NCBI GenBank assembly: GCA_946407495.1
Contig: CAMJOB010000013.1
Span: forward strand, 1-32,961
From: an uncultured Bacillota bacterium
GTDB lineage: Bacteria > Bacillota_I > Bacilli_A > RF39 > UBA660
Length of the DNA: 32,961 nt
Reading direction: 5' to 3'
The position numbers were made by a program, and so were the translations under genes. Position 1 is the first letter of the stretch. Every line of letters starts with the position of its first letter. Positions 3,256-22,935 of this stretch are shown here, piece by piece. The notes under the pieces are model-generated. The model saw nothing but the letters and a program-made list of their open reading frames with translations. It made no database searches and was not told where the DNA came from.

Positions 3256-5304
3256 ATGGGTATGGAAAAAAGGGGTCTATTTAAAAACATAATTAATATT
3301 CTTTTAGATATATTGATGGTACTATTTGGGATTATCTTATTAATCTCCATTTATAACAACGTTCAAATACATATTTTAGGTAATAAATATTCTAGTTTCT
3401 TCGGATATTCAAACTTCGAAGTACAAACTGGAAGTATGGAGCCTACAATTTCAGCAGGAGATTGGATCATTGTTAAACAAACTAAGAATGTTAAGTTAGA
3501 TGATATTATCACATATGAAAAAGAAGGAGAGTTTATTACTCACCGTGTTCTTGAAGCTTATCGTGGTACTTATATCACTAAAGGTGATGCGAATAACAGT
3601 AAGGATGAAGCTATTAGTCAAGATCAAATCGTAGGTACAGTTGTTAAAATCTTACCTGGATTTGGAATTATTCGTAGAACATTGCTTAACCCAGTAGTAC
3701 TTGTTGCTTTAATAATTACACTTTATCTTTTAGGTTATGCTTTAAAAGGTAATAAGAAAGAGAATAAAGAAAGCTTCTTACAAAAGTTCTTTGATACTAA
3801 GACAGTTCCTAATAAGAAAATTAAGATTAAGAAAAAAGTTGTTGTTCAACCTGTAGTAGAAGAAAAAGTTGCTACTGAGGTTGAAGAAGTAAAAGAAGAA
3901 CCAATTGCTGAAAAAATCGAAGAAGTAGAAGAGGTTCAAGAGGAAGTTGTTGAAGATATCCCTGAAAATGTTGTTGAAGAGGATGAAATCAACGAAGAGT
4001 TAGCTTCAGCATTAGAAGAACCTGTAGATGAAGAAGACTTAACTAAGACAATGTACTTCAGAATGGTTAATGTAAGTAAGGAAGACTTAAATAGTAATTC
4101 AATAGAAGTTCCACAACAAGAAGTTGAAGAAACAATTGAAGAGACTAAGGAAGTAGAAGAAGAGAAACCTGAAAATAGTGAAGTTGCTGATAAGATTAAG
4201 TTAATTCAAAACAGACGTAAGAAATATAAAAACATCATTGATAAAATAATCTACATTAAAAATGAAGAATTAAATGAAATACTTGAGATATTAAATAATA
4301 ATGATCGTTATAAAGTAAATGAATCTTCTATTAAAGATGAGATTCAAAAAGATTATGTTGATGGTAAGTATTATAACTATTGTGGAAATGTTAATGTTGA
4401 ATACAATGGTAAGAATATGCTTACAAGAATTGATGCAGAACTTAAAGCTAAAGGAGATGCATTAATTAAGAAATATAAGGGTAACGATAGTAACTATGGT
4501 GATAAAGTTAAGAAATTTGTTAATTACTATTTATTAATCAATAGCTTAGAAGAATACTTCCGTAAGGATGAAGATACTAAAGCTAAGAGAGATGCTTATA
4601 GTAATAAGATTTCTAAACATATTAAAGATATTTCAGATTTTGAACTTAAGAATATGATTACTAAACTTCTTAAAGTTCAAAGAGTTTATGCAAGTGTTGT
4701 TAATCATTTGATTAATGAACAAGCTTCTACAACATTCCAATTAGAGTTTTCTAAGATTAATGGTCATAAGAATTTAATTGGAGCAGATTTAAATCATAAT
4801 ATTCAATTTAGCAAAGTATACAGTGATTACATTGTTAAAAAGACTTATAACGATGGTACAGTTGCTGAAGATAAATCAATTATCTTAGTTAACTTATTAC
4901 TTGTAGAAGTATTAAAGGACATGTATGCTGGTGATTTCTTTAAGAATTATATAATTCCAATAGCTGGAAGTATTTATTCTAAGAGTACTAAGATGGAACG
5001 TACCTTCAATATTCTTGGTGATGAGTATGCTAAGAAGAATATCATTATCTTACTTGAATACACAGATTTAGTTGAAAATAAGAAAGTTCTTAAAGCACTT
5101 AAGAAAGATGGATTTAGATTTGCTGTAGTATTTAGATATGGTGATGAAATTAAAGATAAAGATCAAAAAATGCTTAGCATTTGTGATTATGCATTTGTGG
5201 ATAAAAAGGAAACTAACATATTGAATAGCTTACCTGAAGAATTAAAGGGTAATGTTATAAATGATGATATCTTAAAAAAATTAAATGTTGATGGGGGTAA
5301 ATAA
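3256..5304 (+). CDS. ER-type (SipW-like) signal peptidase I with long cytoplasmic extension
   Basis: This is a membrane signal peptidase of the archaeal/ER-type class that in Bacillus (SipW) processes TasA-like fibre proteins. A membrane segment spans about residues 12-34. Ser60 lies in TGSMEPT, His96 in ITHRV, and Asp111 and Asp117 in KGDANNSKDE, so the catalytic set is complete. A second membrane segment spans about 148-168. The normal enzyme would end near 190. Here an acidic low-complexity linker (about 195-305) leads to a mostly helical domain of about 370 residues. Its end (ILLEYTD, then VLKALKKDGFRFAV and CDYAFVD) faintly recalls a degenerate EAL-type barrel, which is only an impression. 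It is the first gene of the operon, 2 nt before the AAA+ gene. Confidence 0.88.
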   Translation: MGMEKRGLFKNIINILLDILMVLFGIILLISIYNNVQIHILGNKYSSFFGYSNFEVQTGSMEPTISAGDWIIVKQTKNVKLDDIITYEKEGEFITHRVLEAYRGTYITKGDANNSKDEAISQDQIVGTVVKILPGFGIIRRTLLNPVVLVALIITLYLLGYALKGNKKENKESFLQKFFDTKTVPNKKIKIKKKVVVQPVVEEKVATEVEEVKEEPIAEKIEEVEEVQEEVVEDIPENVVEEDEINEELASALEEPVDEEDLTKTMYFRMVNVSKEDLNSNSIEVPQQEVEETIEETKEVEEEKPENSEVADKIKLIQNRRKKYKNIIDKIIYIKNEELNEILEILNNNDRYKVNESSIKDEIQKDYVDGKYYNYCGNVNVEYNGKNMLTRIDAELKAKGDALIKKYKGNDSNYGDKVKKFVNYYLLINSLEEYFRKDEDTKAKRDAYSNKISKHIKDISDFELKNMITKLLKVQRVYASVVNHLINEQASTTFQLEFSKINGHKNLIGADLNHNIQFSKVYSDYIVKKTYNDGTVAEDKSIILVNLLLVEVLKDMYAGDFFKNYIIPIAGSIYSKSTKMERTFNILGDEYAKKNIIILLEYTDLVENKKVLKALKKDGFRFAVVFRYGDEIKDKDQKMLSICDYAFVDKKETNILNSLPEELKGNVINDDILKKLNVDGGK

Positions 5305-5306
5305 GT

Positions 5307-6869
5307 ATGAATACATTTTTAAGATTTTTCTATGAATTTGTTTCTGTATTCTTTGATGGATTACTTTCAATAGTTAATGGTTTTACATCAGGTATTGTTA
5401 AAATGTTCAGTTTTAAAGAATATGGAAGAATTATTGAGAATTACAAAGCTTACTTTAATGGTAAAGAAAAAATATTTGTAATTATGGCAGTTGTATTCTT
5501 AATAGTAATTGTCTTAATAGTAGGTATATTAATTTATCTATTTGTTAAGAAGCTATTAAGAAGAATGCAAAATCATTATAGTAAAGATGAAATGCTTGAA
5601 GAAATTGGTAGTTTAAATGATCAAGTTCTTAAATTAAAGAAACAAAATGATGAATTGATGGCAATGAAAGTTTCTCAATTAGGTCTTAAACCTGATGATG
5701 CTAAAGAAGAAGGCAAAGATGGTAAGAAAGATGCTAAGGATGGAGAAGCTGGTGAAGGTGAAGAAGAAGAGGAAGAAGAAGGTGTAGCTGGAATTAGATT
5801 CCCTAAACTATGTGGTTATGATGAACAATTCAAAGGTAAGAAACCTAAGACATATGACACTAGTTATACTTTACCTGAGTTAATTGATAACTTCAGATGT
5901 TTCTCAGCTAGTCAATTACATTTGTATTATGACTTTACTATTTTAAGACCTTTCTTTGCTGGACTTGCTTGTGGTAAGTTAATTATCCTACAAGGTATCT
6001 CTGGTACTGGTAAAACTTCCTTAGCTTATGCTTGGGGTAAATTTGTTAAGAATGATTCCTGCGTTACTGCAGTTGAACCTTCATGGCGTGATAAATCAGA
6101 TTTCTTAGGATACTTCAATGAGTTGACTAAGAAGTTCAATGAAACTCGTGCCTTAGGTGAGATTTACTTAGCTGGTTATGATGACAATGTTCATACAATC
6201 ATCCTAGATGAAATGAACCTTGCACGTGTTGAGTATTACTTCGCCGACTTATTATCAATTTTGGAAATGCCAAACCGTCAAGAGTGGTTAGTAGATATCG
6301 TATCTTCGTCTTGGCCAAAGGATCCAAAGAATATCGTTGCAGGTAAGTTAAGACTTCCAGGTAACTTATGGTACATCGGTACAATCAATAACGATGACTC
6401 AACATTCATGGTTACAGATAAAGTTTACGATAGAGCTATGCCAATCGATATCAATACAAAGATTGATCCATATACATGTCGTGAACAAGAAGCAGTAGAA
6501 GTAAGTGCTACTTACTTAGAAAGCTTATTTGCAGAAGCAATTGAAAAGAATCCGGTTTCTCCAAAAGGATTAGAAGCAATTCGTGAAATCGATGATTATG
6601 TTACTGAACATTTCCGTATCGCTTTTGGTAACCGTATTATGAAACAATTAAATGTCTTTGCTCCAGTGTATGTTGCATGTGGTGGTAAAGAGATGGAAGC
6701 AATAGATTACTTTATTGCTAGAAAGATTTTACGTAAGTTCGACCAATTAAGTGTTAACTTTATACGTGATGAATTAAATCCATTTATCGCTTTCTTAAAT
6801 AAGAAATATGGTAAAGGAACAATGAAAGAATGCATTGCATTCATTGAAAACTTAAAGAAGAGTATATAG
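5307..6869 (+). CDS. Membrane-anchored McrB-like AAA+ ATPase
   Basis: This is a P-loop AAA+ NTPase of the McrB/AAA_5 type. The N-terminus is hydrophobic (residues 3-31), followed by a clear membrane helix at 56-80, a coiled coil (about 92-125) and a Gly/Lys/Glu-rich acidic linker (about 135-165). The NTPase core has Walker A GISGTGKTS (230-238, Lys236), Walker B IILDEMNLA with Asp301-Glu302, sensor 1 around GTINNDDST (358-366) and a likely arginine finger in DRAM (Arg376). No nuclease or DNA-recognition domain is visible, unlike restriction McrB. It lies between two signal peptidase genes and just before a DUF2357-like gene, which suggests a role in export or assembly at the membrane. The substrate is unknown. 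Confidence 0.88.
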   Translation: MNTFLRFFYEFVSVFFDGLLSIVNGFTSGIVKMFSFKEYGRIIENYKAYFNGKEKIFVIMAVVFLIVIVLIVGILIYLFVKKLLRRMQNHYSKDEMLEEIGSLNDQVLKLKKQNDELMAMKVSQLGLKPDDAKEEGKDGKKDAKDGEAGEGEEEEEEEGVAGIRFPKLCGYDEQFKGKKPKTYDTSYTLPELIDNFRCFSASQLHLYYDFTILRPFFAGLACGKLIILQGISGTGKTSLAYAWGKFVKNDSCVTAVEPSWRDKSDFLGYFNELTKKFNETRALGEIYLAGYDDNVHTIILDEMNLARVEYYFADLLSILEMPNRQEWLVDIVSSSWPKDPKNIVAGKLRLPGNLWYIGTINNDDSTFMVTDKVYDRAMPIDINTKIDPYTCREQEAVEVSATYLESLFAEAIEKNPVSPKGLEAIREIDDYVTEHFRIAFGNRIMKQLNVFAPVYVACGGKEMEAIDYFIARKILRKFDQLSVNFIRDELNPFIAFLNKKYGKGTMKECIAFIENLKKSI

Positions 6870-6881
6870 GAGTGAGGGAGC

Positions 6882-8018
6882 ATGGCTAAGAAGTCTACTT
6901 TTACAGATAGTGTTGATACTGAAATCAAAGCAAAAAAAGATTCTTTTGTATCATCTCTAGGATCAGAAATGTATTATGAGTCGGACTTAAACGGTGGATC
7001 AATGTCATTTGAGTGGCTAGATCAAATCGAATTTGCCGCTCCTTTTATTGATAATGTAATTCGTATTCCGAAACTATCACTTGTAAAACAAGAAATTATA
7101 GTTCCGGCTGAAAGAACTAAGAAGGTTACAGTTGAAAGTATTAAGGATTTAGCTAAACATCCAAATTATGTTGATGAGATGAATCCTTCTACTGGAGATG
7201 TAAGACCAAACAGAATCTTAAATGTTATTAGTGAAGAGACTTATAACATTTATGAAAATAGATTCTTATATACATTAATACATGATATGGAAACGTTTAT
7301 CCGTAAGAAAGAGGATGAGTTAAAGAATCTTAAACTTAGTACTCATAAGTTTCTAGAATATAGTGGTAGTACAAAGACTGATATTGAAAATATTAATATT
7401 GAACTTCGTATTACTTCTGATACTTTCCCATCAGATGTTGCGGATAAAAAGTTAAAGGATGAAATAAGACAAGTCAAGGTAAGGCTTAAGAGAATTAATG
7501 ACTATGTATCAAGTTGGCATCGAAGTGCGATGTTTAAAGAACTTGATAAAGCTCATGTTCATTATTTAAATCCTCCAATTAAGAAGACTAATATTTTCTT
7601 AAAAAATCCTAACTTCAAAGTAGCTCAAAAATTATATGACTACTTGTTAAAACAAAATGGAAGTGACGATGATAATTCCACTTCAAACTTAGAAAAGAAT
7701 AGTGATCCTTTCCAAGGATTTTTGGATCATGCTTTCTTGATTGACTTCTGTGTTTTGGATTCTGTTTCTAGAAGAAAACGTGATCAAAAAGAGAAGATGA
7801 GTTATTATGCAATACTATTATTAAAAGAAGAAATTCATAGAACATTGGATATGTTAATGAGTGCTGGAATAGATATTACTGATGATGAATTAATAAAAAT
7901 GATAGCTGAAGAACTTAAGAAAGATAGAAATAATCGACTTGTTGGAGTTGATGATGTTAAGAAGAAGTTCAAGAGTGCTATTGATGAATATATGGAAAGG
8001 ATGCAAGATTACTTGTAG
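6882..8018 (+). CDS. DUF2357-like partner of the AAA+ ATPase
   Basis: This is a soluble protein of 378 residues without signal peptide or membrane segment. The centre contains YNIYENRFLYTLIHDMETFI (121-140) and the region LNPPIKKTNIFLKNP...YDYLL (229-256). These resemble the core of DUF2357/McrC-type proteins that pair with McrB-like ATPases (an Asn-Arg-Phe motif followed by a helical scaffold). The PD-(D/E)XK nuclease half expected in McrC is not visible, so it is unlikely to cut DNA. The ribosome binding site AGTGAGGGAG precedes the ATG, 12 nt after the ATPase gene, so the two are probably translated together. The family name is an inference from motif memory; the pairing with the ATPase is direct. 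Confidence 0.55.
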   Translation: MAKKSTFTDSVDTEIKAKKDSFVSSLGSEMYYESDLNGGSMSFEWLDQIEFAAPFIDNVIRIPKLSLVKQEIIVPAERTKKVTVESIKDLAKHPNYVDEMNPSTGDVRPNRILNVISEETYNIYENRFLYTLIHDMETFIRKKEDELKNLKLSTHKFLEYSGSTKTDIENINIELRITSDTFPSDVADKKLKDEIRQVKVRLKRINDYVSSWHRSAMFKELDKAHVHYLNPPIKKTNIFLKNPNFKVAQKLYDYLLKQNGSDDDNSTSNLEKNSDPFQGFLDHAFLIDFCVLDSVSRRKRDQKEKMSYYAILLLKEEIHRTLDMLMSAGIDITDDELIKMIAEELKKDRNNRLVGVDDVKKKFKSAIDEYMERMQDYL

Positions 8019-8027
8019 TGTGATTTT

Positions 8028-8600
8028 ATGAAAAAGTTTTTTGAGAGTAAACCATTTAAAATATTTAAATCGGTTTTTAACGTTTTTATTGTAGTTTTAG
8101 TTATAGCATTTGTACTGATTGTTTGTTTACAACGTTTCAGTAATAATAGAATATCATTCTTTGATTATCGTATGTTTACGGTAATTTCTGGTTCCATGGA
8201 ACCTAAGTACAAGATAGGTGATGTATTAGTAGCTAAAGAAGTTGCTCCTAATAAAGTTAAAGTAGGAGATACAATCTCATATCTTGGTAAAGAAGGGCAA
8301 TTTAAAGATAAGGTTATAACTCACGAAGTTGTAGAAATTGCTAAAGACAAAGATGGAAAAATTATTTTCCATACTAAAGGTCTAGCTAATTTAGTTGAAG
8401 ATCCTATTGTTAATGAATCTCAACTATATGGTGTAGTTATCTATCGTTTGTTCTTACTATCAGCAATATATAAGATAGTGGGTACAACACTTGGTATGTT
8501 TATCTTTATAATTATTCCAATATTCTATATTATTGGTTCTGAAATTATAACATATATGTTAGAAAAAGAAGAGGAAAGAAGAAGTAAGTCTAAGAAATAA
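8028..8600 (+). CDS. ER-type (SipW-like) signal peptidase I, second copy
   Basis: A compact signal peptidase of 190 residues. The N-terminal membrane segment spans about 14-34, Ser56 lies in ISGSMEP and His99 in VITHEVV, and the C-terminal membrane segment spans about 153-176, followed by a charged tail. The conserved motif KGDxN...D reads KGLANLVEDP. The first aspartate is Leu119, while the second (Asp125) is kept. The first copy in this window has both. Activity is likely but not certain. It lies 9 nt after the DUF2357-like gene and just before a SipW-type secreted protein, its likely substrate. A different substrate range from the first copy is a reasonable inference. Confidence 0.9.
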   Translation: MKKFFESKPFKIFKSVFNVFIVVLVIAFVLIVCLQRFSNNRISFFDYRMFTVISGSMEPKYKIGDVLVAKEVAPNKVKVGDTISYLGKEGQFKDKVITHEVVEIAKDKDGKIIFHTKGLANLVEDPIVNESQLYGVVIYRLFLLSAIYKIVGTTLGMFIFIIIPIFYIIGSEIITYMLEKEEERRSKSKK

Positions 8601-8637: not shown

Positions 8638-9852
8638 ATGGATGCCAAAAAACGTATTTATTTAAAACTTAATTTAGTATCGTTATTTTTTATCGCTGTT
8701 TCCCTAATCTCAGTAACTCTAGCATGGTTTGCTTATAGTGGACTTGCTAAGGTAGATACGGAAATTGATGTTAAGACTTGGTATATTGAATTCCAGAAAG
8801 GTCAAGAAGCAGTAAGTAATAACATTGTTATTTCATTATCTGATATATCTCCAGGTATGGATATAGTAACTGAAAAAGTTAAGATAATGAATAGAGGAGA
8901 TTCCGATGCTCAATTAAGTTATTCTATTGTTTCTGCTACATTGATGGGTACTGAATTAGATAGTACTAATGGAAGTAGTTACTTAGAGGATAAGTTAAGT
9001 CATGATTATCCATTCCATATAAATCTAAGTTTAAATAAGAGCTTTGCTTTATCTGGTGATGAATATAGTGAATTTAATTTATCTGTATCATGGCCACTTG
9101 ATTCTGGAAATGATTCATTTGATAGCGAGTGGGGTACACGAGCTTATCAATTCCAAAGAGCTGAACAAACTCATCATTCTCAAGATGAGAGTTATGTTCC
9201 AAAACCTTCGATTAAAATAATTATCAGTGTTAAGGCTGAACAATTGTTAACACAAAATTCTTCACCTGATACTGATTATGAAACTGGAGCATTGGTATTA
9301 TACGATGTAGTTCAAAATGCTAAATGTGATACATTAAGTGGTACATGTTTAAGAACACATGTTATTGATACTAATAATACTAAAGGTGATACAACAGTTT
9401 CATTACTTCCTGATTTATATGGTACTTATTCTTCAGGAGACTTTAATTCATATAATTCATTATTAGCTTCTGCTGTTAGTGGATGGACAGTTAATACTAG
9501 AGCATTAACTCCAGATGATTTATTAAAAGTAATTTCAAAAGATGTTGTTAATTCTATAGTAATTGGTGATAATGTTTCTAATCGAATTATTGGTGATGTT
9601 AAATATGGAACAAGATCTAATAATGTTAGAACATGGACAGTATCTAAGAATGGTTTATTTAGATTTAACAATGATGTTTATCCTTACTTAGTAACTAATA
9701 AATGTTACTGGACTAATACAGAATATGATACTGATAGAGGATTTGCATTAACTAAGATTGATGAAGATTACTCTAAAGTATATGGAGCTGCTAAGAATAC
9801 AAGTTGTAGTGTAGTTCCAGTAATAGTTGCAAGTAAATCAAATTTACAATAA
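8638..9852 (+). CDS. Secreted protein with SipW-type signal peptide (TasA/camelysin-like)
   Basis: The 404-residue protein starts with a basic end and a hydrophobic helix ending in SVTLAWFAYSG (25-35), the pattern of signal peptides cleaved by SipW-like peptidases. Next comes a beta-rich domain with the phrase LSDISPGMDIVTEKVKIMNRGDSDAQLSY (split across about 62-90), typical of TasA/camelysin-like proteins in which a 'PG' turn precedes a strand on relative extracellular repeats. The C-terminal part (about 215-404) has four Cys residues and is not recognised. A GAGAGGAGGG ribosome binding site fixes the start. It is the last gene of the operon that carries both signal peptidases, so it is the natural substrate candidate. 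Confidence 0.82.
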   Translation: MDAKKRIYLKLNLVSLFFIAVSLISVTLAWFAYSGLAKVDTEIDVKTWYIEFQKGQEAVSNNIVISLSDISPGMDIVTEKVKIMNRGDSDAQLSYSIVSATLMGTELDSTNGSSYLEDKLSHDYPFHINLSLNKSFALSGDEYSEFNLSVSWPLDSGNDSFDSEWGTRAYQFQRAEQTHHSQDESYVPKPSIKIIISVKAEQLLTQNSSPDTDYETGALVLYDVVQNAKCDTLSGTCLRTHVIDTNNTKGDTTVSLLPDLYGTYSSGDFNSYNSLLASAVSGWTVNTRALTPDDLLKVISKDVVNSIVIGDNVSNRIIGDVKYGTRSNNVRTWTVSKNGLFRFNNDVYPYLVTNKCYWTNTEYDTDRGFALTKIDEDYSKVYGAAKNTSCSVVPVIVASKSNLQ

Positions 9853-9922: not shown

Positions 9923-10543
9923 TTATGCTAATTTTTGTTCGAAAGTCATGTCAACTTGCATTTGTAATGTTGTGTTGTCTGCATCGATTCCTACTAATGT
10001 ATCATCATCGTCATCCATGCTTTCATTATTTCCTTCATACCATTCGAAGTAGATTCTTATGGTCATTGGTTCAAATTCAAAATTTTGTACATTCTTATTA
10101 TAATTTAAAGAACCTTGAATTTCGTTGTTTTGAATTACTGTTAACTCTAATTCATCGCCTTCTTCATAATCACTATCAAGTATTGCGTATTTTGTAATCA
10201 TGATGTCTGGGATATCGTTATTTAGAACTGATAATGTAATATCGTAGTTGAATGATAACTCAACGTTTGATGGATCTATGTCAATATCGAAATAACCTTT
10301 TGATGATGGAGCTAAAGTATTACTCTTTACGTTTGCATTTTCTTCAACTACTGGAGTTAATGTAATTGTTGAAGTATTTCCACTAGTAATGTCGCTTTCG
10401 TTTACAAGTATTTGCCACTTACTAAATGATACTTCTACGTTTCCAGTTGTATCTGCAACGTATCTTGAATAAGTATTGCTCATCAAGCAAAGCGTTATAG
10501 ATAAAGATATTAGAACCACCAAGAACTTCATCTTAGTGTTCAT
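9923..10543 (-). CDS. Small secreted TasA/camelysin-like protein with SipW-type signal peptide
   Basis: The 206-residue protein has a hydrophobic N-terminus ending in MSNTYSRYVAD (21-31), the Tyr/Phe-containing junction typical of SipW substrates. A short beta-rich domain follows, with strands such as VEVSFSKWQI and a 'LAPSSKGYFDIDIDPSN' segment that matches the general camelysin/TasA layout. Near the C-terminus an acidic patch (SMDDDDDT) could bind metal, which is speculative. The ribosome binding site AAGGAAGGAG is strong. It is the only gene of the fibre cluster on the minus strand and has its own promoter and terminator, so it can be expressed separately from the two flanking operons. Confidence 0.82.
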   Translation of the reverse strand: MNTKMKFLVVLISLSITLCLMSNTYSRYVADTTGNVEVSFSKWQILVNESDITSGNTSTITLTPVVEENANVKSNTLAPSSKGYFDIDIDPSNVELSFNYDITLSVLNNDIPDIMITKYAILDSDYEEGDELELTVIQNNEIQGSLNYNKNVQNFEFEPMTIRIYFEWYEGNNESMDDDDDTLVGIDADNTTLQMQVDMTFEQKLA

Positions 10544-10875: not shown

Positions 10876-11571
10876 ATGGAGAAGAAGGTTACGTTAAGCT
10901 CAGAAAAAATGAAACGCGAAAAGAAAATACGTAAGTTCTTCAAAATCTTTTTGCTATGTCTCTTACTTCTATTAATTATAATCTACTTCCTCGTAGGCAT
11001 CATTTATAATAGTGGAAATTTTAGCATAACGATGGACAAAAACTTATACTTTGAGAAGAATTTGATCATATACGATAGTCCTATATATAAGGTATATAGA
11101 ACTGAATTGTATGCTAAAGCGCCAAATACTTTTGATAACATTTCTTACAAGTGGCTTCCTGAAAATCTAGATGATTTGGGTGGTGGATCCCACAATGGTC
11201 AGAATTATTTAGCTTATACTTTCTATATAGAAAATATGGGTAAAGATATTTCAGACTATTGGAGTGAAGTCATCGTCGATGACGTTATTAAGAATGTGGA
11301 CGAAGCCGTAAGAATTAGAGTCTATAGGGATGGCGAACCTGTCACGTATGCTAAATTATCTGCAAGGGGAACTGCTGAGCCAGAAACAGTTCCGTTTGAT
11401 TCGGATGAATTAGTAGTCCGTGAACATATCACTAACTTTAAACCAGGAGATATTAGTAGATATACTATTGTTCTTTGGGTAGAAGGTAGTGATCCAGAAT
11501 GCACTGATAACATTCTGGGTGGAGAATTCAAAGTCCATATGGATTTCAAATCAGAATTTGTTGAAGATTAA
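10876..11571 (+). CDS. Membrane-anchored TasA/camelysin-like protein
   Basis: The 231-residue protein has a basic N-terminus and a long hydrophobic helix (about 21-44) with no SipW-type cleavage motif, so it probably stays anchored with its body outside. The exterior beta-rich domain includes YLAYTFYIENMGKD (about 113-126), a common element of this fold. Its end VLWVEGSDPECTDNILGGEF (199-218) matches the WxEGxDP(E/D)C...GG motif of many Bacillota SipW-associated proteins. The same place in the three downstream paralogues reads IEGQD(V/I)D. It is the first gene of the operon, 19 nt before the next start. Being first and anchored, it is a candidate base or nucleation unit for the fibre, by analogy with TapA; that role is inferred. 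Confidence 0.75.
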   Translation: MEKKVTLSSEKMKREKKIRKFFKIFLLCLLLLLIIIYFLVGIIYNSGNFSITMDKNLYFEKNLIIYDSPIYKVYRTELYAKAPNTFDNISYKWLPENLDDLGGGSHNGQNYLAYTFYIENMGKDISDYWSEVIVDDVIKNVDEAVRIRVYRDGEPVTYAKLSARGTAEPETVPFDSDELVVREHITNFKPGDISRYTIVLWVEGSDPECTDNILGGEFKVHMDFKSEFVED

Positions 11572-11590: not shown

Positions 11591-12877
11591 ATGGCTAAGA
11601 AAAGAAAAAGAGATAACAAACATGAAAAACGCGTCAAGAAGCTCATTGTAGGAAGTTTCTTATGTGCAATTTTATTAGCAGTTTCAACTTATGCATGGTT
11701 CATTGGTATGAAAACTGTTAATGTTTCTAGTTTCGATGTTTCAATTGCTGCAATTGATGGGTTATCATTATCTTTAAATGGTAAGGATTGGTCTGATACT
11801 GTAACAATTAATCAATCAAACTATAATGATACTGAAAATACAGTATATTCTGGTAATACTAATACTTGGGGTGGAGATGGATTAATTCCAATGTCAACAG
11901 TTGGTATAATCGATACTACTGCTTCAAGAATGATATTATTTGAAAAAGGATCTTTAACTACTACACCTGGTGGTTATAGATTAATGGCAAGTCAAGTTCA
12001 AAATTCTGGCGCTAAAGAAGCAGATGGATATGTTGCTTTCGATTTATTTGTTAAGAACTTGTCAGGAAATGAATATTATACTGATTTAGAGAAAAAGAAT
12101 GAGGAAGCTATTTACTTAACTACTGATTCTAAAGTAACTGTAGCTTCAACTGGTGTTGCTAACACTGGTATTGAAAATAGTGTTCGTGTAGCATTCGCTC
12201 AAATCGGACGTGTAATTGCTACTGAAACTACTCAAGCAAAAATTACTGGTATCACTTGTGCTACTGGTAATGGTGTAACTGGAATCTGTGCTGATCGTCC
12301 TGCACAAATCTGGGAACCAAATGATAAAGATCACGTACAAAATGCAATTAACTGGTATACAACTTCTTGTAAGAAGAGAGTTGATGAAGACGTAACTGAT
12401 ACTGATTCTTATAATGGAGCATGTAACGCAGTTGCAAATGGTACTGCATATCAAACATATGCTGTATCTGGTGTAATTGATTATGATGATAATGTAGATG
12501 TATACGATGGTGCTGCTTATAACACTTATACTGCTACTACTTCTGCTACAGCAGCTGCTGGTAAATTAGTAGCTTATCCTACATTTACTGATACTATGAA
12601 GAATTTAGCTGGTGTTAATAGACCAACATTCATTACATTAGCTCCAAATAGTATTACAAAGATTAGAATCTATGTATATATCGAAGGTCAAGATGTTGAT
12701 AACTATGACTTCGCTTCTTTAGGAAAGAAGATTTCTGTAGCATTCGGATTCACTAAGGAAAGATTCTTTGATGAAGATGTTAACTATGATAGTACTAATA
12801 CTGCTACATTACCAGATGATGTTATTAAGAATGCAGAAAATAGATCAACTGCTAATAACACTACAAATAATGGTTAA
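11591..12877 (+). CDS. Secreted SipW-type fibre subunit candidate, paralogue A
   Basis: The gene encodes 428 residues from ATG 11591, which is preceded by AAGGAG at 11575-11580. A longer reading from 11489 would overlap the previous gene and lacks this site. The signal region is basic, then hydrophobic (18-31), then STYAWFIGMKTV (32-43), a SipW-type junction. The mature part shares long blocks with the next gene: IPMST..., GYVAFDLFVKN, TVASTGVANTGIENSVRVA, IWEPNDK.HVQNAINWY and a C-terminal block around LAPNSITK and IEGQDVDNYDFASLGKK. Four Cys residues (in ITGITC, TGIC, TTSC and NGAC) are conserved in the next paralogue, which suggests two disulfides. The function as a polymerising subunit is inferred from the TasA/SipW context. 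Confidence 0.85.
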   Translation: MAKKRKRDNKHEKRVKKLIVGSFLCAILLAVSTYAWFIGMKTVNVSSFDVSIAAIDGLSLSLNGKDWSDTVTINQSNYNDTENTVYSGNTNTWGGDGLIPMSTVGIIDTTASRMILFEKGSLTTTPGGYRLMASQVQNSGAKEADGYVAFDLFVKNLSGNEYYTDLEKKNEEAIYLTTDSKVTVASTGVANTGIENSVRVAFAQIGRVIATETTQAKITGITCATGNGVTGICADRPAQIWEPNDKDHVQNAINWYTTSCKKRVDEDVTDTDSYNGACNAVANGTAYQTYAVSGVIDYDDNVDVYDGAAYNTYTATTSATAAAGKLVAYPTFTDTMKNLAGVNRPTFITLAPNSITKIRIYVYIEGQDVDNYDFASLGKKISVAFGFTKERFFDEDVNYDSTNTATLPDDVIKNAENRSTANNTTNNG

Positions 12878-12962: not shown

Positions 12963-14285
12963 ATGGCTAAGCAAAGAAAACGTAATAAGAAGTTGCGTAA
13001 GCTTATTGCAATTTGTCTTATTTGCGCTATTATCTTAACAGTATCTACTTATGCATGGTTCATTGGTATGAAAACTGTTAACGTATCTAGTTTTGATGTT
13101 GAAATTGCTACAACTGAAGGTCTATTCCTTTCAATGGATGGTGTTGATTGGAAATACAATCTAGATGCAAAAAATACTCAAGCATATGCAAAAAATACTA
13201 ATACTTGGGCAGATGATGGATTAATCCCTATGTCATCTATTGGTGATATGGATGAAGATGCTTCTCGTATGAAATTATTCGAAAAAGCATCTTTAACTAC
13301 TACTAAAGGTGGTTACAGATTATTAGCAAGTAGAGTTGCTAATAACAGTAAAACTGATTCAGATCATATTGGTTACATTGAAGGAAAAGGATATGTTGCT
13401 TTCGACTTATTCATTAAGAATATGTCTGGTAATGAATACTATGAAACTAATGAACCATTAAATGAAGAAAATATTTACTTAACAACTAATTCTGCAGTAA
13501 CTGTTGCTTCTACTGGTGTTGCTAACACTGGTATTGAAAACAGTGTTCGTGTTGCTATCGTTCAAATCGGACGTGTTAAAGGTGATACTACTGATGCAAC
13601 TACAATTACTGGAATTACTTGTGAAGATGTTGAGGCTACACAAAGTACACCTAAAATAACTGGAATTTGTCGTAATGCACAAATTTGGGAACCAAATGAT
13701 AAAGCACACGTACAAAATGCTATTAACTGGTATGACACATCTTGTTTACCAAGAAATAGTGGTGGATCTGATGTAACTAATGCTGCATCTTATAACACTG
13801 CTGATGGAGCTGCTTGTGCTACTGTTGAAAATGGTGAAGCTTATCCAACTTATGCAGTTGCTAAAGTTTTAGGAATTAACGATAATGTTGATGTATATGA
13901 TGGTGAATCTTATAATGGATATACTACAGATACAGTTGATTATGCTGCTTATGCTGCTGCTCAAGATCAAAGTGGTTATAAATTAGTAAGTTATCCATAC
14001 TTTACTGATACAATGAAAAATTTAACTGGAACTTCAAGACCTGCTTTCATGTCTTTAGCTCCAAATTCAATTACTAAGTTAAGAGTTTATATCTTTATTG
14101 AAGGACAAGATATCGATAACTATGACTTCGCTTCTTTAGGAAAGAAGATTTCTGTTAACTTTGGATTTACTAAGGAAAGATTTACTGAATCTGATGTTAA
14201 CTATAGTGGTCCATCAACTGATATAACACCAAATGCTGAAGCTGAAGCTGCTGCTGCAAATAACTCAGCAAACAATGGTGACTAA
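12963..14285 (+). CDS. Secreted SipW-type fibre subunit candidate, paralogue B
   Basis: The 440-residue protein is a clear duplicate of the previous gene. Its signal region ends in VSTYAWFIGMKTVNVSSFDV (27-46), almost letter for letter the same as in paralogue A. It shares the blocks KGGYRLLASRV, GYVAFDLFIKNMSGNEYY, ASTGVANTGIENSVRVA, IWEPNDKAHVQNAINWY and IEGQDIDNYDFASLGKK, and the same four Cys. The differences are concentrated in the N-terminal part after the signal and in loops, such as the Ala/Tyr-rich segment near 325. The ribosome binding site is TGGAGGAAA before ATG 12963. The two copies could form a heteropolymer or be phase- or condition-specific variants, which is inference. Confidence 0.85.
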   Translation: MAKQRKRNKKLRKLIAICLICAIILTVSTYAWFIGMKTVNVSSFDVEIATTEGLFLSMDGVDWKYNLDAKNTQAYAKNTNTWADDGLIPMSSIGDMDEDASRMKLFEKASLTTTKGGYRLLASRVANNSKTDSDHIGYIEGKGYVAFDLFIKNMSGNEYYETNEPLNEENIYLTTNSAVTVASTGVANTGIENSVRVAIVQIGRVKGDTTDATTITGITCEDVEATQSTPKITGICRNAQIWEPNDKAHVQNAINWYDTSCLPRNSGGSDVTNAASYNTADGAACATVENGEAYPTYAVAKVLGINDNVDVYDGESYNGYTTDTVDYAAYAAAQDQSGYKLVSYPYFTDTMKNLTGTSRPAFMSLAPNSITKLRVYIFIEGQDIDNYDFASLGKKISVNFGFTKERFTESDVNYSGPSTDITPNAEAEAAAANNSANNGD

Positions 14286-14355: not shown

Positions 14356-15504
14356 ATGGCTAAAGAAAATACTACAATTCAATCCACTGATCAAAAGAAA
14401 GAAAAAGAGAATAAGAAAAAGAGTAAACGTGCTGCTTCTGTTTCTGAGAAGCGTGATAAAAGAGAAAAGAAGAATATTGGTTTACTAGTGTTCACTATTT
14501 TCGCTATGGGTGTTTTACTTATATTTTCTGCTTATGCATGGTTTTCCACTGCATTAAATGTTCAAGTAAAGACATTTAATATGATCGTTACTCGTAACAG
14601 TGGTTTAACTATCTCTTTGGATGGTATTACTTATGATAGTTTCGTTGAGATTAGTAAAACTATTCTTATTGATGAACTAAAGAATACTTATCCAAATAAT
14701 CTAAGTCAATGGGCTTCAAATGGTATGATTCCAGTATCTACTAATGGTATACCTAATTCTGATACTTATTTCTTTGATATTTACTCTAGTAGTGGAGTAC
14801 GTTATAAGAATAAGGCTAGAGAGATTGGTTTCTTAAGTACTGTTAGAGAAAAAGAAGAGTATCGTCGTTCATTTAATAACTGGATTGCTTTTGATTTATT
14901 CTTAAAGAATGATACTGGTTCTCCTATTTCAGATAACTTATATCTTGATACTGGTACTGGTATTACATTCGATACAGAAGAAGTATCAGAGGAAATGCAA
15001 GGTCTTGTTAATTCAGCAAGATTTGGTTTTGCAAGAGTAGCTACTGTACCTAAAAATACAGATCCAACTACTGTTCAAAATCTACAATGTAATGGTGGAT
15101 GTGAATCCATTATTTATGAACCTTATGATAAAGCTCATACCGAACTTAGTAAGGAACGTGCAAAAAAATATGGTCTTCACTTAGAGGATGGAACTTATTT
15201 CCCAACTTATGCTTATATTAAGCAAGGTGGACCATTCCAAATGCCAGATACTATTTCTGGTGCAGCAAATTTAAATTTAGAATATTTCCAATTACAAAAT
15301 ACAATAACTGATGATTCTTTAAGAACACCATTATTTGAATTACCTGATGGTGTTACTAAGATGAGAGTTTATGTTTGGATAGAAGGACAAGATATTGATA
15401 GTTTAGAGACTAACTCTGAAGGAGCAGAAATCACTATATCTATTAACTTTATTAAGGATACTCGTGGTTATGATTCTTTCAATCAATATTCTACAAATCC
15501 TTAG
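14356..15504 (+). CDS. Secreted SipW-type fibre subunit candidate, divergent paralogue C
   Basis: The 382-residue protein has an unusually long, lysine-rich cytoplasmic lead (residues 1-40), a hydrophobic helix (41-58) and the SipW-type junction SAYAWFSTALNVQVKTF (58-74). The layout matches paralogues A and B at lower identity: GLTISLDG, WASNGMIPVSTNG, NNWIAFDLFLKND, IYEPYDKAHTELS and KMRVYVWIEGQDIDSLE. Only two of the four Cys are kept, both in QCNGGCES. It has an AAGGTGG ribosome binding site and lies after the attenuator-like structure, so it may be made in smaller amounts than A and B. A role as minor, capping or adaptor subunit is a guess. Confidence 0.82.
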   Translation: MAKENTTIQSTDQKKEKENKKKSKRAASVSEKRDKREKKNIGLLVFTIFAMGVLLIFSAYAWFSTALNVQVKTFNMIVTRNSGLTISLDGITYDSFVEISKTILIDELKNTYPNNLSQWASNGMIPVSTNGIPNSDTYFFDIYSSSGVRYKNKAREIGFLSTVREKEEYRRSFNNWIAFDLFLKNDTGSPISDNLYLDTGTGITFDTEEVSEEMQGLVNSARFGFARVATVPKNTDPTTVQNLQCNGGCESIIYEPYDKAHTELSKERAKKYGLHLEDGTYFPTYAYIKQGGPFQMPDTISGAANLNLEYFQLQNTITDDSLRTPLFELPDGVTKMRVYVWIEGQDIDSLETNSEGAEITISINFIKDTRGYDSFNQYSTNP

Positions 15505-15526: not shown

Positions 15527-15685
15527 ATGAAAAAGAAGAATGAAGAAGAAAAAGTTGGTTTTGATTTATCTACGTTAAGTTTACAAGAATTAATTAATGT
15601 TTATAAAAATATTACAGATTTTATGCAATATTTAGACGATAATAAAATTATTGTAGAAGAAGAAAAGGAAACAGAAGATGATTAA
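15527..15685 (+). CDS. Small acidic protein, unknown function
   Basis: This 52-residue protein starts at ATG 15527 behind GGGTGGGTG. A longer reading from 15464 overlaps the previous gene and has no ribosome binding site. It has a charged N-terminus, a helix-prone middle (TLSLQELINVYKNITDFMQY) and a strongly acidic tail (EEEKETEDD). It is not membrane-bound and I do not recognise it. Its stop overlaps the start of the next gene by 8 nt, so the two are probably translationally coupled and may form a complex. Confidence 0.7.
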   Translation: MKKKNEEEKVGFDLSTLSLQELINVYKNITDFMQYLDDNKIIVEEEKETEDD

Positions 15686-17400: not shown

Positions 17401-20400
17401 ATGAAGGCTTTTAGTAAGAAAAAGAAAATTCAGATTACTAGTATAGTTATAGTTCTTTTAGTAGCTATCTTATTTGTAACTATTGGTGTACCTTCTTTTG
17501 CACGTTATAAGAATCGTAGTTCTATGGCTGAAGCTATGGTTTGGGATGGTAGTGTTGCTAGTAGTTATCGTAAGGGTTCAGGTACTTCAGTAGACCCTTA
17601 TGTAATTTCAAATGGATCTGAATTTGCTTATTTCCAATCTCAATTGGAAACAGTAGATTATGAAAATACATATTTTGAATTAGGCAGTGATATTGTTTTA
17701 AATGATGGTGTATTTGCTTATGACACTACTAATGGTATTACTTATACAAAGAATGGTAATACTTCTACTATTAGTCCTTATCAAAATTCATATCAAAATG
17801 TACAAGTATTCCCAAGTATTAAACAATTTAAAGGTCATTTAGATGGTAAAGGATATAGAATATATGGATTATTTATTACTAAGTCTACTTCTGATCCTTT
17901 AGGTTTATTCTTAGATCTTCGTGGTACAGTTAATGATTTATATATTACAAATTCTTTAATCTATGGTGGTTCTATTACTGGTGGTGTTGCTGGTAAGGCT
18001 AAAGATGCTACTATATCAAATGTTTTATTCCAAGGGGACGTTGTAAGTAGAAGTGAAACTGTTGATAATACTTTCTATGTTTCAATGGAAGATGTTGAAA
18101 AAGAAATTGATAATACTACTGATACTGAATTAGTAGTTATTCCAAAACAAAAGATTGGTGGAAAGATAACTTCAATTAAAGTAACTGGTAATTTAGTTAC
18201 AAGTGATCAAGTAGGTACAGTTACTTTAAATGGTCAAGCTATTAGTGATGGAGATTTTGAAATCACTCTTGGTACTACATTAGATGATGTTACTTTTGAA
18301 TTTACTTCTACTGCAAATACAACTTATGAGTTAACTAATTTAAGATACGCTATTGCTTATAGATATGGTAATAGTGCTGGTATTGTATCAGAGGCTGATG
18401 GAGTTACCTTAACTAATGTTGCTCAAAGAGGTACTATTTACGGTAGCGTATATGCTGCTGGATTAGTAAATGATGTTACTGGTACAACTAATATTACAAA
18501 TTGTTATAACGTTGCTGATATTCATGGTAATTCTGCTAGTGGTTTAATTAATAGAATAGAATATAATGCTAGTACAGTAACAATTACTAATGTTTATAAC
18601 TCTGGTGCAGTATATGCTCCTGGTAGTTATGGTTTAATCGGATCAATTAATAATAGTACAGTTAATTTAAGTAATAGTTTTAATCAAAATAATAACTTTG
18701 TATTAGGAACTATTGATAATAGTACAGTTACAGTTACTAATGTAGCTTGTAGTACAAATAATTATGTTAATAATGGTACTATTACTGGAACTATTTCTTA
18801 TTCAAATGATTTAAAAGCATATGCTAGAACAGTTGGTTTTGATGAATTTATTGACTCTACTGATTTAGCAAGTAATGCTTCTCATATTTGGGTTTATAAT
18901 GATACAAGTCTTCCAATACTTGCTTTAGATGATGTTAATAATACTTTAGCAACTATTCATGTTGGAGATCATTCTTGGAATAATGTTGGTTATGAATTAA
19001 ATCCATTAAAGTTTAATTCTTTATCATTTAGTATTCAAGAAGTTGATCATTTAAGACCAATTAAAACAGTTTCTTATTACATTCATAATTCAAGTACACC
19101 TTTACGTAAGAGTGAAATTGAAGCTATAAGTAGTTGGGAAACTTATAATGATGTAGTTAATATACCAAATGAAGGATTCTATATTGTATATGCTAAAGTT
19201 ACTGATTATAGCGATGTAGTTTCTTACTTAAATACAGATTTATTAATTCTAGATTTAAGTGGTTCATCTATTACAATGGAATTAGGTAGTGATACATGGA
19301 CTACTACTTCAAATAATGTTAATACTAAATATCTTGCTTCTAATGGAAGTTTAAGTATTAGTGCAGTTGATAGTTTATCTGGTGTTAAATCTATTCAATA
19401 TTATGTAACTGATTCAGTTTTATCTAATCAAGAATTAACAGAAGTAAGTACATGGACAAATTATACTGGTCCTGTAACAATTAATTCTACAACAGGTGAA
19501 ATTGTTTATACTAAGGTTAATGATAATGTTAATTATATTACTTATGCAAATACTGATAGATTATTAGTAGGTGGATTTGAACAAACTAGTATTATTGCTG
19601 GTAGAAGTACTTCATTCTCTACTAATGTTAATGTAACTGATAAATCTGCTGTATCTATGTATTATGCATTCAGTGATACTGATAGTTATCCTAATGGAAT
19701 AACTCATGCAATTACATTTAGTGATACATTACCTGTTGATACTATGATTACTATTATGGATCGTACTCGTAGTAAAACATATAAATATACAACAACTGCT
19801 TTAGATGATGAGACTATTTACTTTACTAGTTTCAGAGAAGTAGGTACTACTAATTCATTTAGTGAATCAGTATATACTGGAGCAATTAGTGAAAGTTATA
19901 AAGTAATAGTTGATTTTTCTAAGACTACATTATCAAATAACATTATTGATTTAAGTGCTACATTAAGTATTAATAGTGGTTTAGATACTATATTAAGTAC
20001 TGTAGGTAGTGTAAGTTCATTTAATGTTATTACTAATAGTGATGCTACTGTTACTTTTGCATCTACTTATAATAGTACAGTTTACTATAATACTGATGAT
20101 ACTTATCAAATACCAGTTACTGGTTCATTAGCATTTGGTACTTATAATACTTCTAATGTAATTGATACTACTTATGAAGATAAGAAGTTTGGATTAGCAT
20201 TAAAGATGGTTGATTCAAATCAAACTATTGTTAATAAGATGCATTTACAAAATATTAAATTTAAGATTGGTAATAAATATTACTTTATGGATAACGATAA
20301 CGTTGTTCGTATGGATTTAGGTGTAGGAGTTGGAAATGTTAATACTAATTTAGTTATTGAAACTAATAGTGCTAATATTCAATTACCTAATGGTACTTAC

Positions 20401-20889
20401 ACATTTAAGATAGGTTACTATACTTCTTATGATGGTACTTATGCTAGTGATATAACTTACTTTAAAGATGTCACTGTTACTGTTGCTGATAGTAGTTATC
20501 TACAAATGCAAAAGTTCCAAGTACGTATGAATGATGAAGATCGTATTTTAAGTAAAGATGATAGTAGTCAATTTACTGTAAGTATTCTACAAAATAGTAG
20601 TTACAATAATGCTACTGTTAAAGTTAGATTACTTAGAAAATCTACATTTAGTGCAGCTGATCAAACATACACTGAATTAGATTTAGGGGATTATTCAAAT
20701 ACACAATTAACTAATTATTCTGGTAATATCTATAACACAACTATTACTGGAAATAGTGCTAATTATCGTGATTTAAGTTTTGACTTAGATACTGAAAGTC
20801 TAGGTAGTGGAGCTTATTCATTATCATTTGATTTATATCATGGAGATACATATATTAAATCAATATCAAAGAAAATTATGATTAGATAG
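17401..20889 (+). CDS. Large secreted surface protein with GLUG-like and Ig-like repeats
   Basis: The 1162-residue protein has a basic start, a hydrophobic helix (12-30) and PSFARYKNRSS (31-41), a junction of the SipW substrate type. The motif GSGTSVDPYVIS (59-70) and the phrases GHLDGKGYRIYGLFI and GSITGGVAGKAK are typical of GLUG-type beta-solenoid surface proteins, covering about 59-500. Two tandem repeats of about 95 residues follow (about 522-617 and 621-717), each with an 'I..YY' strand, a 'W..Y' loop and a 'IVY.KV.D...Y.NTD' end, as in Bacillota Ig-like repeats. The last 440 residues are Ser/Thr/Asn-rich and unrecognised. No LPXTG sorting motif is visible. It is probably an adhesin or fibre accessory. 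Confidence 0.82.
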   Translation: MKAFSKKKKIQITSIVIVLLVAILFVTIGVPSFARYKNRSSMAEAMVWDGSVASSYRKGSGTSVDPYVISNGSEFAYFQSQLETVDYENTYFELGSDIVLNDGVFAYDTTNGITYTKNGNTSTISPYQNSYQNVQVFPSIKQFKGHLDGKGYRIYGLFITKSTSDPLGLFLDLRGTVNDLYITNSLIYGGSITGGVAGKAKDATISNVLFQGDVVSRSETVDNTFYVSMEDVEKEIDNTTDTELVVIPKQKIGGKITSIKVTGNLVTSDQVGTVTLNGQAISDGDFEITLGTTLDDVTFEFTSTANTTYELTNLRYAIAYRYGNSAGIVSEADGVTLTNVAQRGTIYGSVYAAGLVNDVTGTTNITNCYNVADIHGNSASGLINRIEYNASTVTITNVYNSGAVYAPGSYGLIGSINNSTVNLSNSFNQNNNFVLGTIDNSTVTVTNVACSTNNYVNNGTITGTISYSNDLKAYARTVGFDEFIDSTDLASNASHIWVYNDTSLPILALDDVNNTLATIHVGDHSWNNVGYELNPLKFNSLSFSIQEVDHLRPIKTVSYYIHNSSTPLRKSEIEAISSWETYNDVVNIPNEGFYIVYAKVTDYSDVVSYLNTDLLILDLSGSSITMELGSDTWTTTSNNVNTKYLASNGSLSISAVDSLSGVKSIQYYVTDSVLSNQELTEVSTWTNYTGPVTINSTTGEIVYTKVNDNVNYITYANTDRLLVGGFEQTSIIAGRSTSFSTNVNVTDKSAVSMYYAFSDTDSYPNGITHAITFSDTLPVDTMITIMDRTRSKTYKYTTTALDDETIYFTSFREVGTTNSFSESVYTGAISESYKVIVDFSKTTLSNNIIDLSATLSINSGLDTILSTVGSVSSFNVITNSDATVTFASTYNSTVYYNTDDTYQIPVTGSLAFGTYNTSNVIDTTYEDKKFGLALKMVDSNQTIVNKMHLQNIKFKIGNKYYFMDNDNVVRMDLGVGVGNVNTNLVIETNSANIQLPNGTYTFKIGYYTSYDGTYASDITYFKDVTVTVADSSYLQMQKFQVRMNDEDRILSKDDSSQFTVSILQNSSYNNATVKVRLLRKSTFSAADQTYTELDLGDYSNTQLTNYSGNIYNTTITGNSANYRDLSFDLDTESLGSGAYSLSFDLYHGDTYIKSISKKIMIR

Positions 20890-20904: not shown

Positions 20905-21462
20905 ATGAAGAGTATAAAAATAAAATATCGTATTGTAGTTATTTTGTTTTTACTAGTATCACTTGTGATTGGTTCTTGTATAACTTATTCATTGTTTCAT
21001 TCATCTGTTACAGTTGAAGTTAATCAAGATTTAGCTCGTTTCGTATTTGATGCGAATAATACAGATCACATTGATCTAGATCTTGTAGGTCTTACTCCAG
21101 GATCAGATGAAGATTATTACTTCTCTGTAACTAATAGAAAAAATAATAAATTAAGTGATGTAACTATAAAATATCAAATTACTATAAAGACTATGCATAC
21201 AATGCCACTTACTATTAAGCTTTATTCTATTGATGCACAAGATCATGAAACTGAAATAATGCAATGTGATGAAACTTATTCAAGAGATTCTGATCATTAC
21301 TTAATCTGTAATACTTCTGAATTAGAGATGGCTTATTCTAGTGCAGTAGTTAATAGATACAAAATCAACGTAGCTTTTCCACAACAATATAATGGAATTG
21401 AATATGCTGATTTAGTAGATACTATTAGTGTTGATATTAGAAGTTGGCAGAAGACAAGTTAG
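20905..21462 (+). CDS. Small secreted TasA/camelysin-like protein
   Basis: The 185-residue protein has a basic N-terminus, a hydrophobic stretch (9-25) and the junction CITYSLFHSSVTVEV (25-39), like SipW-type substrates. A compact beta-sandwich-like domain follows, with LDLVGLTPGSDEDYYFSVTN (split near 57-76), the 'PG' phrase before a strand found in camelysin-like proteins. Two Cys (in MQCDE and LICNT) could pair. It lies 15 nt after the large surface protein with the ribosome binding site AAAGGAGAG, so it belongs to the same operon. Confidence 0.78.
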   Translation: MKSIKIKYRIVVILFLLVSLVIGSCITYSLFHSSVTVEVNQDLARFVFDANNTDHIDLDLVGLTPGSDEDYYFSVTNRKNNKLSDVTIKYQITIKTMHTMPLTIKLYSIDAQDHETEIMQCDETYSRDSDHYLICNTSELEMAYSSAVVNRYKINVAFPQQYNGIEYADLVDTISVDIRSWQKTS

Positions 21463-21471
21463 GGGGATTCT

Positions 21472-22341
21472 ATGAAGACGAAGAGAAAATTAAAATTACA
21501 GTATCTTATCTTAGTAATATTAATTCTTGGAGTTGCAGTTACTAGAGGTTTTTCATTAGCTAAGTATGCAAAAAACTCGGCATGGAATTATTATTTGAAA
21601 AGTAATGGATTTTACTTTACAACAGACTTTGATACACAAGATACTATTAATACTAACTGGAATGGTAATCCTATAACTTTTACTGTTAATAACTTTGATG
21701 AAGATTCAGTTACTAATTATGATATTGGTTATCAAGTTACTTGTTCTGTTACTGGTGAAGCTGCAAGTATTGCTGCTTGTAGATTAAATGGTGGTAATAC
21801 AAATACATTTAGTGGAACTTTATCAAGTAATGAATATTGTTCAGATAATCAATATTTAACTCAAACTACATGTGAGACACACAATGAAGAATGGATTGTA
21901 GCTAAGACACATAGAGATTTAACATTTACTGTTGTACCAACTGGTCAAGATGAAATTACTACAGCTACTGTACAAGTACAAGTAACTTCAACTGCACCAT
22001 TTAGTAAAACAATGACTCATAGATATATTTTAACTAAGGGTATGAGTGAAATTGGTACATTTAGTTTAGATTATAAGACTATGTCACAATATGACCATTT
22101 AGTAGTAACTAATTCATATAATGAGAATAAATGTGCTAGACTTACTTGGGATAGTACTAAAGTAAGAATAGATTTAAATGATAATAGTTATGCTACTACA
22201 ACAGATGGCAATGGGGTAATAAATGGAATTACATTTACGATACCTAAAAAAGATAGTATGAACTTTGTATTCTATAGAACTAATTTAAGTCAGGCAGTTA
22301 ATTCTTCAATATTTACTATTGTTGAATCAAATGCTTGCTAA
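21472..22341 (+). CDS. Secreted TasA/camelysin-like protein with several Cys
   Basis: The 289-residue protein has a basic start, hydrophobic residues 11-24 and the junction GFSLAKYAKNSAWN (26-39), another SipW-type form. The exported part contains the camelysin-like phrase PITFTVNNFDEDSVTNYDI and several Cys (in VTCSV, AACRL, EYCSDN, TTCETH, NKCAR and the final Cys), an even number that fits disulfides. The ribosome binding site is TAGGGGGAT, 9 nt after the preceding gene. The function is unknown beyond export. It may be partner of the preceding small protein. Confidence 0.78.
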   Translation: MKTKRKLKLQYLILVILILGVAVTRGFSLAKYAKNSAWNYYLKSNGFYFTTDFDTQDTINTNWNGNPITFTVNNFDEDSVTNYDIGYQVTCSVTGEAASIAACRLNGGNTNTFSGTLSSNEYCSDNQYLTQTTCETHNEEWIVAKTHRDLTFTVVPTGQDEITTATVQVQVTSTAPFSKTMTHRYILTKGMSEIGTFSLDYKTMSQYDHLVVTNSYNENKCARLTWDSTKVRIDLNDNSYATTTDGNGVINGITFTIPKKDSMNFVFYRTNLSQAVNSSIFTIVESNAC

Positions 22342-22401: not shown

Positions 22402-22935
22402 ATGAAAATACTTAAGAATATTAGAAATGTAATTTTGTTTATTTTAGGAGTAGCGTTTTTTATCTTTGCGTTATCTATGTCTATGTTATTACTTAACTTT
22501 AATAAATATGGATTAACACAATTTGGAGATACTACATTTGTATTAATTAATAACGATATAGTTAGTGATGTTTATAAAAAAGGAGATTTAGTATTTGCAG
22601 AATCTCATAACATTATGACTTTAAAAGAAGGAGAAATGATGTTTGCTTATCGTGTAGATAGTCAAGGTGGAGTACATGTTGACTTAGGTAAGATCGGACA
22701 TATTTATCCTGAAGAGAATGCAATTTCATTTGAGAATGGTAATACTTATTCTACTGAGTTTTTAGCGGGTGTTCCTACTAATCATTATAAGAGTGTTGGA
22801 ACTTTCTTATCAGTAGTTGAATCTAAATGGGGATTCTTATTTATAGTATTAGTTCCTTGTTTCTTGATTTTCTTATATGAAATCTATGCATTAATTGTAG
22901 AAATCAAATATGGTGGTGAAGAAGAGAATGCTTAA
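22402..22935 (+). CDS. Signal peptidase-like protein lacking the catalytic serine
   Basis: The 177-residue protein keeps the layout of the two SipW-like peptidases: N-terminal membrane helix (about 9-31), a strand followed by YKKGDLVFAE (58-67), then LKEGEMMFAYR, an extracellular beta domain ending near VGTFLSVVESKWGF, and a C-terminal membrane helix (about 146-168). The catalytic SGSMEP box is replaced by NNDIVS (50-55), with Asp52 at the position of the serine. No ITH(R/E)V or KGDxN motif remains; one His occurs in GGVHVDL but does not align clearly. It is therefore probably inactive and may serve as a chaperone or regulator of a peptidase. Three SipW-type proteins precede it. Confidence 0.72.
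   Translation: MKILKNIRNVILFILGVAFFIFALSMSMLLLNFNKYGLTQFGDTTFVLINNDIVSDVYKKGDLVFAESHNIMTLKEGEMMFAYRVDSQGGVHVDLGKIGHIYPEENAISFENGNTYSTEFLAGVPTNHYKSVGTFLSVVESKWGFLFIVLVPCFLIFLYEIYALIVEIKYGGEEENA

Follow-up and report, generated by a model that had tools for sequence, protein, structure and literature searches.

We propose, at a probability that we put a little under 60%, that the stretch of DNA analysed here (32,961 nucleotides from an uncultured Bacillota bacterium; hereafter the window) carries a CoCoPALM-type locus: an operon for SipW-dependent surface fibres that includes a cytosolic NTPase device of its own, which is set by a dead-EAL receptor and controls or powers fibre biogenesis. The surface function of the module is well supported by its context, and the composition of the locus suggests that a restriction motor has found a second use in building or controlling fibres on the cell surface.

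The source genome of the window comprises 52 contigs and is 68% complete, and the closest relatives with a name are MAGs of uncultured Bacilli. The cluster begins at position 3256, preceded by rpsB, tsf and an frr-like gene, with nearly all of its genes on one strand and pheS/pheT-like genes beyond its far end. At its start lies a 682-aa protein (3256..5304, plus strand) in which a SipW-type signal peptidase (residues ~1-165), an acidic linker and a dead-EAL domain (residues ~317-682) were recognised by TIGR02228, an AF2 model and structure searches. It is followed on the same strand by the 520-aa McrB-type AAA+ NTPase P0002 (5307..6869), the 378-aa McrC-type DUF2357 scaffold P0003 (6882..8018) and a further SipW-type signal peptidase with catalytic Ser and His present (8028..8600; TIGR02228, 76 bits), with only 2-12 bases between P0002 and P0003 and likewise between this pair and its neighbours. 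The original prediction had the pair at 5307-8018 and placed it between two SipW-like genes; this holds, except that the upstream SipW proved to be the N-terminus of a SipW-EAL fusion and that a third, Ser-less SipW-like gene is also present.

Downstream, the genes encode mainly exported proteins. The secreted SEC1 (8638..9852, plus strand) has a signal/anchor segment ending in ...SVTLAWF, and the small, divergent, secreted SEC2 (9923..10543; ...NTYSRYVAD; alignment A6) lies on the minus strand, an orientation kept in most loci. On the plus strand follow a membrane-anchored extracytoplasmic protein (10876..11571; membrane helix at 24-42), with homologues in many SipW-linked loci and also outside the close family, and three surface subunits predicted from sequence, at 11591..12877 (signal ...LLAVSTYAWF; resembling the product of the next), 12963..14285 (...ILTVSTYAWF) and 14356..15504 (...LLIFSAYAWF). 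A cytosolic 540-aa protein with no family assigned (15678-17300) lies within this surface cluster and is kept in several relatives. The remainder, again on the plus strand, consists of a large surface protein of 1162 aa (17401..20889), an ORF of >1000 aa being recurrent in many loci; a small subunit whose family is related to camelysin/TasA (20905..21462); a conserved secreted or anchored protein (21472..22341), which adjoins the EAL gene in other loci; and the SipW-like pseudo-enzyme without the catalytic Ser (22402..22935), whose SM motif is missing in 61/62 homologues and whose gene is the first of the module in many relatives.

Using a profile of nine homologues of P0002, we found E. coli McrB to be the only PDB family at E <0.01 (E 1e-5). 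The complete NTPase set that had been claimed for the protein was borne out: Walker A K236, Walker B D301-E302, the sensor N361 and also R376 do not vary among nine homologues, and the motifs recur in 80 further loci, with GISGTGKT in 79 (the remaining one being a clipped ORF), LDE[MI]N and NND[DE]STF in all 80, and DKVYDRAM, which contains R376, in 77. An NxD motif (N361-N-D363), followed by D or E, is present in 80/80 loci; aligned without gaps to E. coli McrB, the sequence also permits the reading NxxD. The predicted membrane helix and acidic linker were likewise recovered, and for the coiled coil a heptad pattern was seen. After a conserved N-terminal segment there is one membrane helix (58-76), kept in 78/78 full-length homologues, then a heptad pattern discerned by eye at residues 97-125 (I100, L103, V107, L110, L117), an acidic linker that varies by lineage and the NTPase domain (~190-520). 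The N-terminus of P0002 has these membrane, heptad and acidic segments instead of a modified-DNA-binding domain. Since the single helix at 58-76 is followed by a basic stretch, the NTPase domain is predicted to be cytosolic. Collectively, the sequence data strongly support P0002 as related to McrB, with its catalytic motifs intact and a single helix that probably tethers it to the membrane.

The assignment of P0003 as a DUF2357/McrC scaffold without a nuclease was also upheld. The Pfam DUF2357 model recognises P0003 over its cut-off (7e-12), and it matches 56/56 family members scanned (P0003 plus 55 homologues). Its AF2 model (pLDDT 82, pTM 0.54) gave weak Foldseek matches, and in a second-look alignment four McrC structures ranked at the top, covering residues 37-263 only (Z 8.1-8.4). 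As a Z of ~8 is marginal by itself, the McrC identity is drawn from the Pfam match together with the first ranking of these four entries. The C-terminal third, after residue 263, where the McrC matches stop, is all helical in the model, and no PD-(D/E)xK fold was seen there; family scans, model and structure alignment were all without a nuclease of this type or a consistent match to a nuclease family, and we discarded the idea of a hidden one. These analyses strongly support P0003, as modelled, as a nuclease-less McrC scaffold and the probable partner of P0002, and on our explanation DNA cleavage is not the job of this pair.

The third subunit is the EAL-like domain. The fusion protein at 3256-5304 scores 72 bits with TIGR02228, over the cut-off, and has the Ser in TGSM and the His in THR, and its residues 317-682 were modelled with an AF2 pLDDT of 92. 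The best Foldseek matches and all 50 alignment rows listed were EAL-domain proteins, with Z up to 14.0 (rmsd 2.9 over 174 residues). The columns aligned by eye with the EAL glutamate and the other catalytic positions are variable, and we therefore read the domain as enzymatically dead; from the topology of SipW it should lie in the cytosol. The EAL-like protein is free-standing in 45 loci and fused to SipW in 27 others besides the window, with the Ser and His motifs of the fused SipW kept in 27/27. Among 60 related genomes, the EAL-like gene occurs in nine, the same nine that carry a family-type NTPase, and a tenth NTPase match (G056) is a distant relative without an EAL-like gene. The model and these distributions strongly support a probable dead EAL domain as third core subunit, covalently joined on the cytosolic side to an active-looking SipW. 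Separately, the only GGDEF protein detected in the 68% complete genome of the window (L177 406-2445, contig C23) has a degenerate DGNEF motif, and GGDEF proteins of about this length occur almost throughout the family. The candidate assignment of the L177 protein as GdpP proved mistaken; this GGDEF protein lies in the membrane and, in addition to the DGNEF motif, has a long N-terminal part that resembles a sensor.

Both SipW proteins encoded at 3256 and 8028 pass the TIGR02228 cut-off and match the SipW equivalog NF046067 below its own cut-off. For the exported proteins of the window, NCBIfam yielded neither a SipW-cognate signal nor a TasA profile at a maximum E of 10; SEC1 had no Pfam or NCBIfam match, and PDB profile searches with SEC1, SEC2 and the 20905 family were empty or at chance level. 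In the 20905 family, Peptidase_M73 (camelysin/TasA) matches 5/25 members (best 1e-5), the window copy being without a match. In four loci, SipW and a camelysin/TasA-like subunit share one ORF (L086 4558-5682, L087 5606-6730, L092 5730-6851 and L118 5697-6836). The exported protein can thus be connected to the cytosolic NTPase through a chain of subunit-SipW fusion, SipW-EAL fusion and the fixed order of EAL, NTPase and DUF2357 genes.

We examined the conservation of the module in the 80 further loci, which had been picked by NTPase similarity and not by context, with loci clipped by contig ends left out of the counts. An EAL-like gene lies upstream of the NTPase gene in 75/77 loci, the DUF2357 gene directly follows it in 79/79 checkable loci, SipW is the next-but-one gene in 77/78, and secreted SEC1 comes after that SipW in 75/75; median intergenic gaps within the module are 3-14 bp. 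In a wider sample, drawn from class-wide DUF2357 matches, a broadened profile found a SipW-type gene at or near the pair in 17/20 loci. The neighbourhood check proposed for the original prediction hence found the homologues almost always in the company of SipW, and it is strongly supported that SipW-type peptidases and exported subunits accompany the module from genome to genome. This conserved order already contradicts the hardly credible idea of an ordinary McrBC restriction remnant lying near SipW genes by chance, for which the McrB/McrC homology speaks, but against which stand the SipW gene in its constant place and flanking the pair in most of the distant loci, the fusions that join the parts and the missing nuclease.

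Two of the three SipW-less exceptions in the wider sample (L145 and L146) are ordinary McrBC systems with a long McrC, and the third (L143) has a GGDEF-EAL gene immediately before the NTPase. A tree gathers the SipW-linked NTPases in a single clade of 54 rows (97/91) and leaves ordinary McrB and an 890-aa McrB outside it. Clade members without SipW are L157-L159 and L170, which form a basal group, L188-L190 and L143. SipW-type genes scored in L157 and L159 were rejected as spurious, the match being only to that tail of the SipW profile which holds a membrane segment and charged residues, and there is therefore one more basal exception group to the SipW association than the tree labels show. 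Within the same clade, the arrangement also differs in L157-L159: a single DUF2357 gene lies between two nearly identical NTPase genes (L157 5556-11475, L158 6379-10741, L159 5756-11595), and L157 and L159 additionally carry a degenerate NTPase-like protein.

In L143 and L189, curated Pfam EAL/GGDEF models match the gene just before the NTPase (L143, EAL 1.7e-20; L189, 6e-8). Relatives of the L143 GGDEF-EAL protein were found in 15/120 class genomes, and by comparison of coordinates 12/19 matches lie within ~5 kb of a clade NTPase; judged by eye, proteins of this type have kept neither the GGDEF motif nor most of the catalytic positions of EAL. An hhalign comparison of the alignment of the EAL-like subunit (A4) with the GGDEF-EAL proteins gave no match, and the link between the two EAL groups is made through gene position and EAL assignment, by structure for one and by Pfam for the other, not through profile similarity. 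A second McrB/DUF2357 copy beside Tad/Flp genes was seen in two genomes of the same family (L173 2029-12587, L174 2700-12102). There the pair follows Tad pilus genes (RcpC/CpaF/TadB/C; in L173, T2SSE 1.9e-29 and RcpC 1.4e-6) and precedes a membrane protein that carries DxDGDG-type repeats (X426), while the protein upstream of the pair is a homologue of the EAL-like subunit (hhalign E 1.7e-18). The link to Tad is no more than suggestive, since in L180-L183, from the same branch, the flanking genes are kept and Tad genes are not visible.

The original prediction had held that no system of this composition was described, which was wrong: CoCoPALM was named by Bell et al. 2024 (PMC11090510). The main text of that paper describes a McrB-like GTPase of NxD type fused to a membrane/coiled-coil segment, tied to signal peptidases and presumed to act in pilus assembly, the NxD motif usually being followed by D or E and the membrane and coiled-coil segments being FtsB-homologous; its function was left to later work, and we found no later paper. 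We file the locus as a CoCoPALM member, judging from its sequence features: an McrB-like NTPase with an NxD-type motif, a membrane helix with heptad segment, a McrC/DUF2357 partner and signal peptidase neighbours. A coiled coil is also described for the McrC homologue of CoCoPALM; in P0003, the AF2 model has an all-helical C-terminal third. The coiled coil of FtsB lies outside the membrane, unlike that of P0002, which is predicted from charge to be cytosolic together with the NTPase. In contrast to our loci, with their EAL subunit, camelysin/TasA-like proteins and Tad genes, the main text of PMC11090510 makes no mention of EAL, GGDEF, TasA/camelysin or Tad. We class the dead-EAL/SipW-fused form as a variant of CoCoPALM whose third subunit we did not find described in that main text, priority being not certain.

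With McrBC of E. coli K-12 the pair shares the McrB AAA+ domain and the DUF2357 stalk of McrC, but it differs in having no PD-(D/E)xK nuclease or modified-DNA-binding domain, and instead a membrane anchor and surface-gene context. Like the tapA-sipW-tasA operon of B. subtilis, the cluster combines ER-like SipW-type peptidase with small exported subunits, one family of which is related to camelysin/TasA; unlike that operon, which has no NTPase, DUF2357 or EAL gene, it encodes three SipW-like proteins, of which two look active and one lacks the Ser. In FimX and LapD, respectively, pili and the retention of adhesins are under the control of dead EAL domains (PMC7288161). A catalytically dead EAL domain beside a pilus or adhesin machine recalls both LapD and FimX, the latter from type IV pili, and the distant loci keep a GGDEF-EAL tandem, but here the domain is joined to SipW and an McrB-type NTPase rather than to PilZ-PilB or LapG.

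By analogy with these systems, DUF2357 would join and stimulate the NTPase ring, as McrC does with McrB, and the EAL domain would couple the ring to SipW as a FimX/LapD-like receptor for cyclic di-GMP or another ligand. NTP turnover might then gate or drive the release of subunits, exported by Sec and bound to SipW, into the fibre as it grows. In B. subtilis, TasA fibres arise by donor-strand exchange, and no NTPase is described for their three-gene operon (PMC9674648); energy input is therefore not obviously needed for fibres; the NTPase may gate rather than push. Counted against our best explanation are the exported proteins without a TasA or SipW-cognate profile match, the unconserved EAL site, the degenerate GGDEF and the clade members that lack SipW.

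Because of the dead-EAL partner, a signal-controlled switch is a serious alternative to the unfoldase or gate that had been envisaged, with a tangible minority chance of being correct. The dead-EAL/NTPase/DUF2357 assembly would sense a signal and, in a LapD-like manner, toggle SipW processing or surface-protein retention without assembly force. The direct fusion of the dead EAL domain to an active-looking SipW fits such a role, as do the precedents of FimX and LapD, and B. subtilis SipW is reported, as cited in PMC13082335, to be bifunctional with a regulatory role; the strict conservation of the catalytic NTPase motifs, however, exceeds what a pure scaffold would need. Doubtful, in our estimation, is the broader proposal that a ring of restriction-derived NTPase, gated by a FimX/LapD-like dead-EAL receptor in physical linkage with the signal peptidase, powers SipW fibre assembly and also serves Tad pili, as a general nucleotide-signal-gated energy device in Bacillota.

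That the locus is an anti-phage or envelope-stress system, tethered to the membrane and making use of surface genes, for instance to sense phage attachment to the fibre, we regard as very unlikely. McrBC ancestry and the patchy distribution in the family would suit it, and PADLOC, run on seven cluster proteins, gave a significant match for the NTPase only (candidate PDC-M26A, 1.5e-37); we discarded this match as evidence for defence, its best stretch being the shared NTPase domain, and found no literature on PDC-M26. Against such a system stand the housekeeping genes as flanks, the steady association with SipW and exported subunits, joined in two loci by Tad pilus genes, and the fact that no nuclease or other toxic effector was found in the cluster.

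Returning to a SipW-dependent fibre operon with its own NTPase device, the constant order of the genes, the fusions of SipW to EAL and to a subunit, and the copies next to Tad genes give a specific, testable wiring of receptor, motor, activator, peptidase and fibre. They make the phrase 'linked to pilus assembly' specific for CoCoPALM, a family named in 2024 without a known function. If this reading is true, a phage-defence motor would have been reused in cell-surface construction, and SipW-dependent fibres would gain an energy or control input that is absent from the described TasA system.
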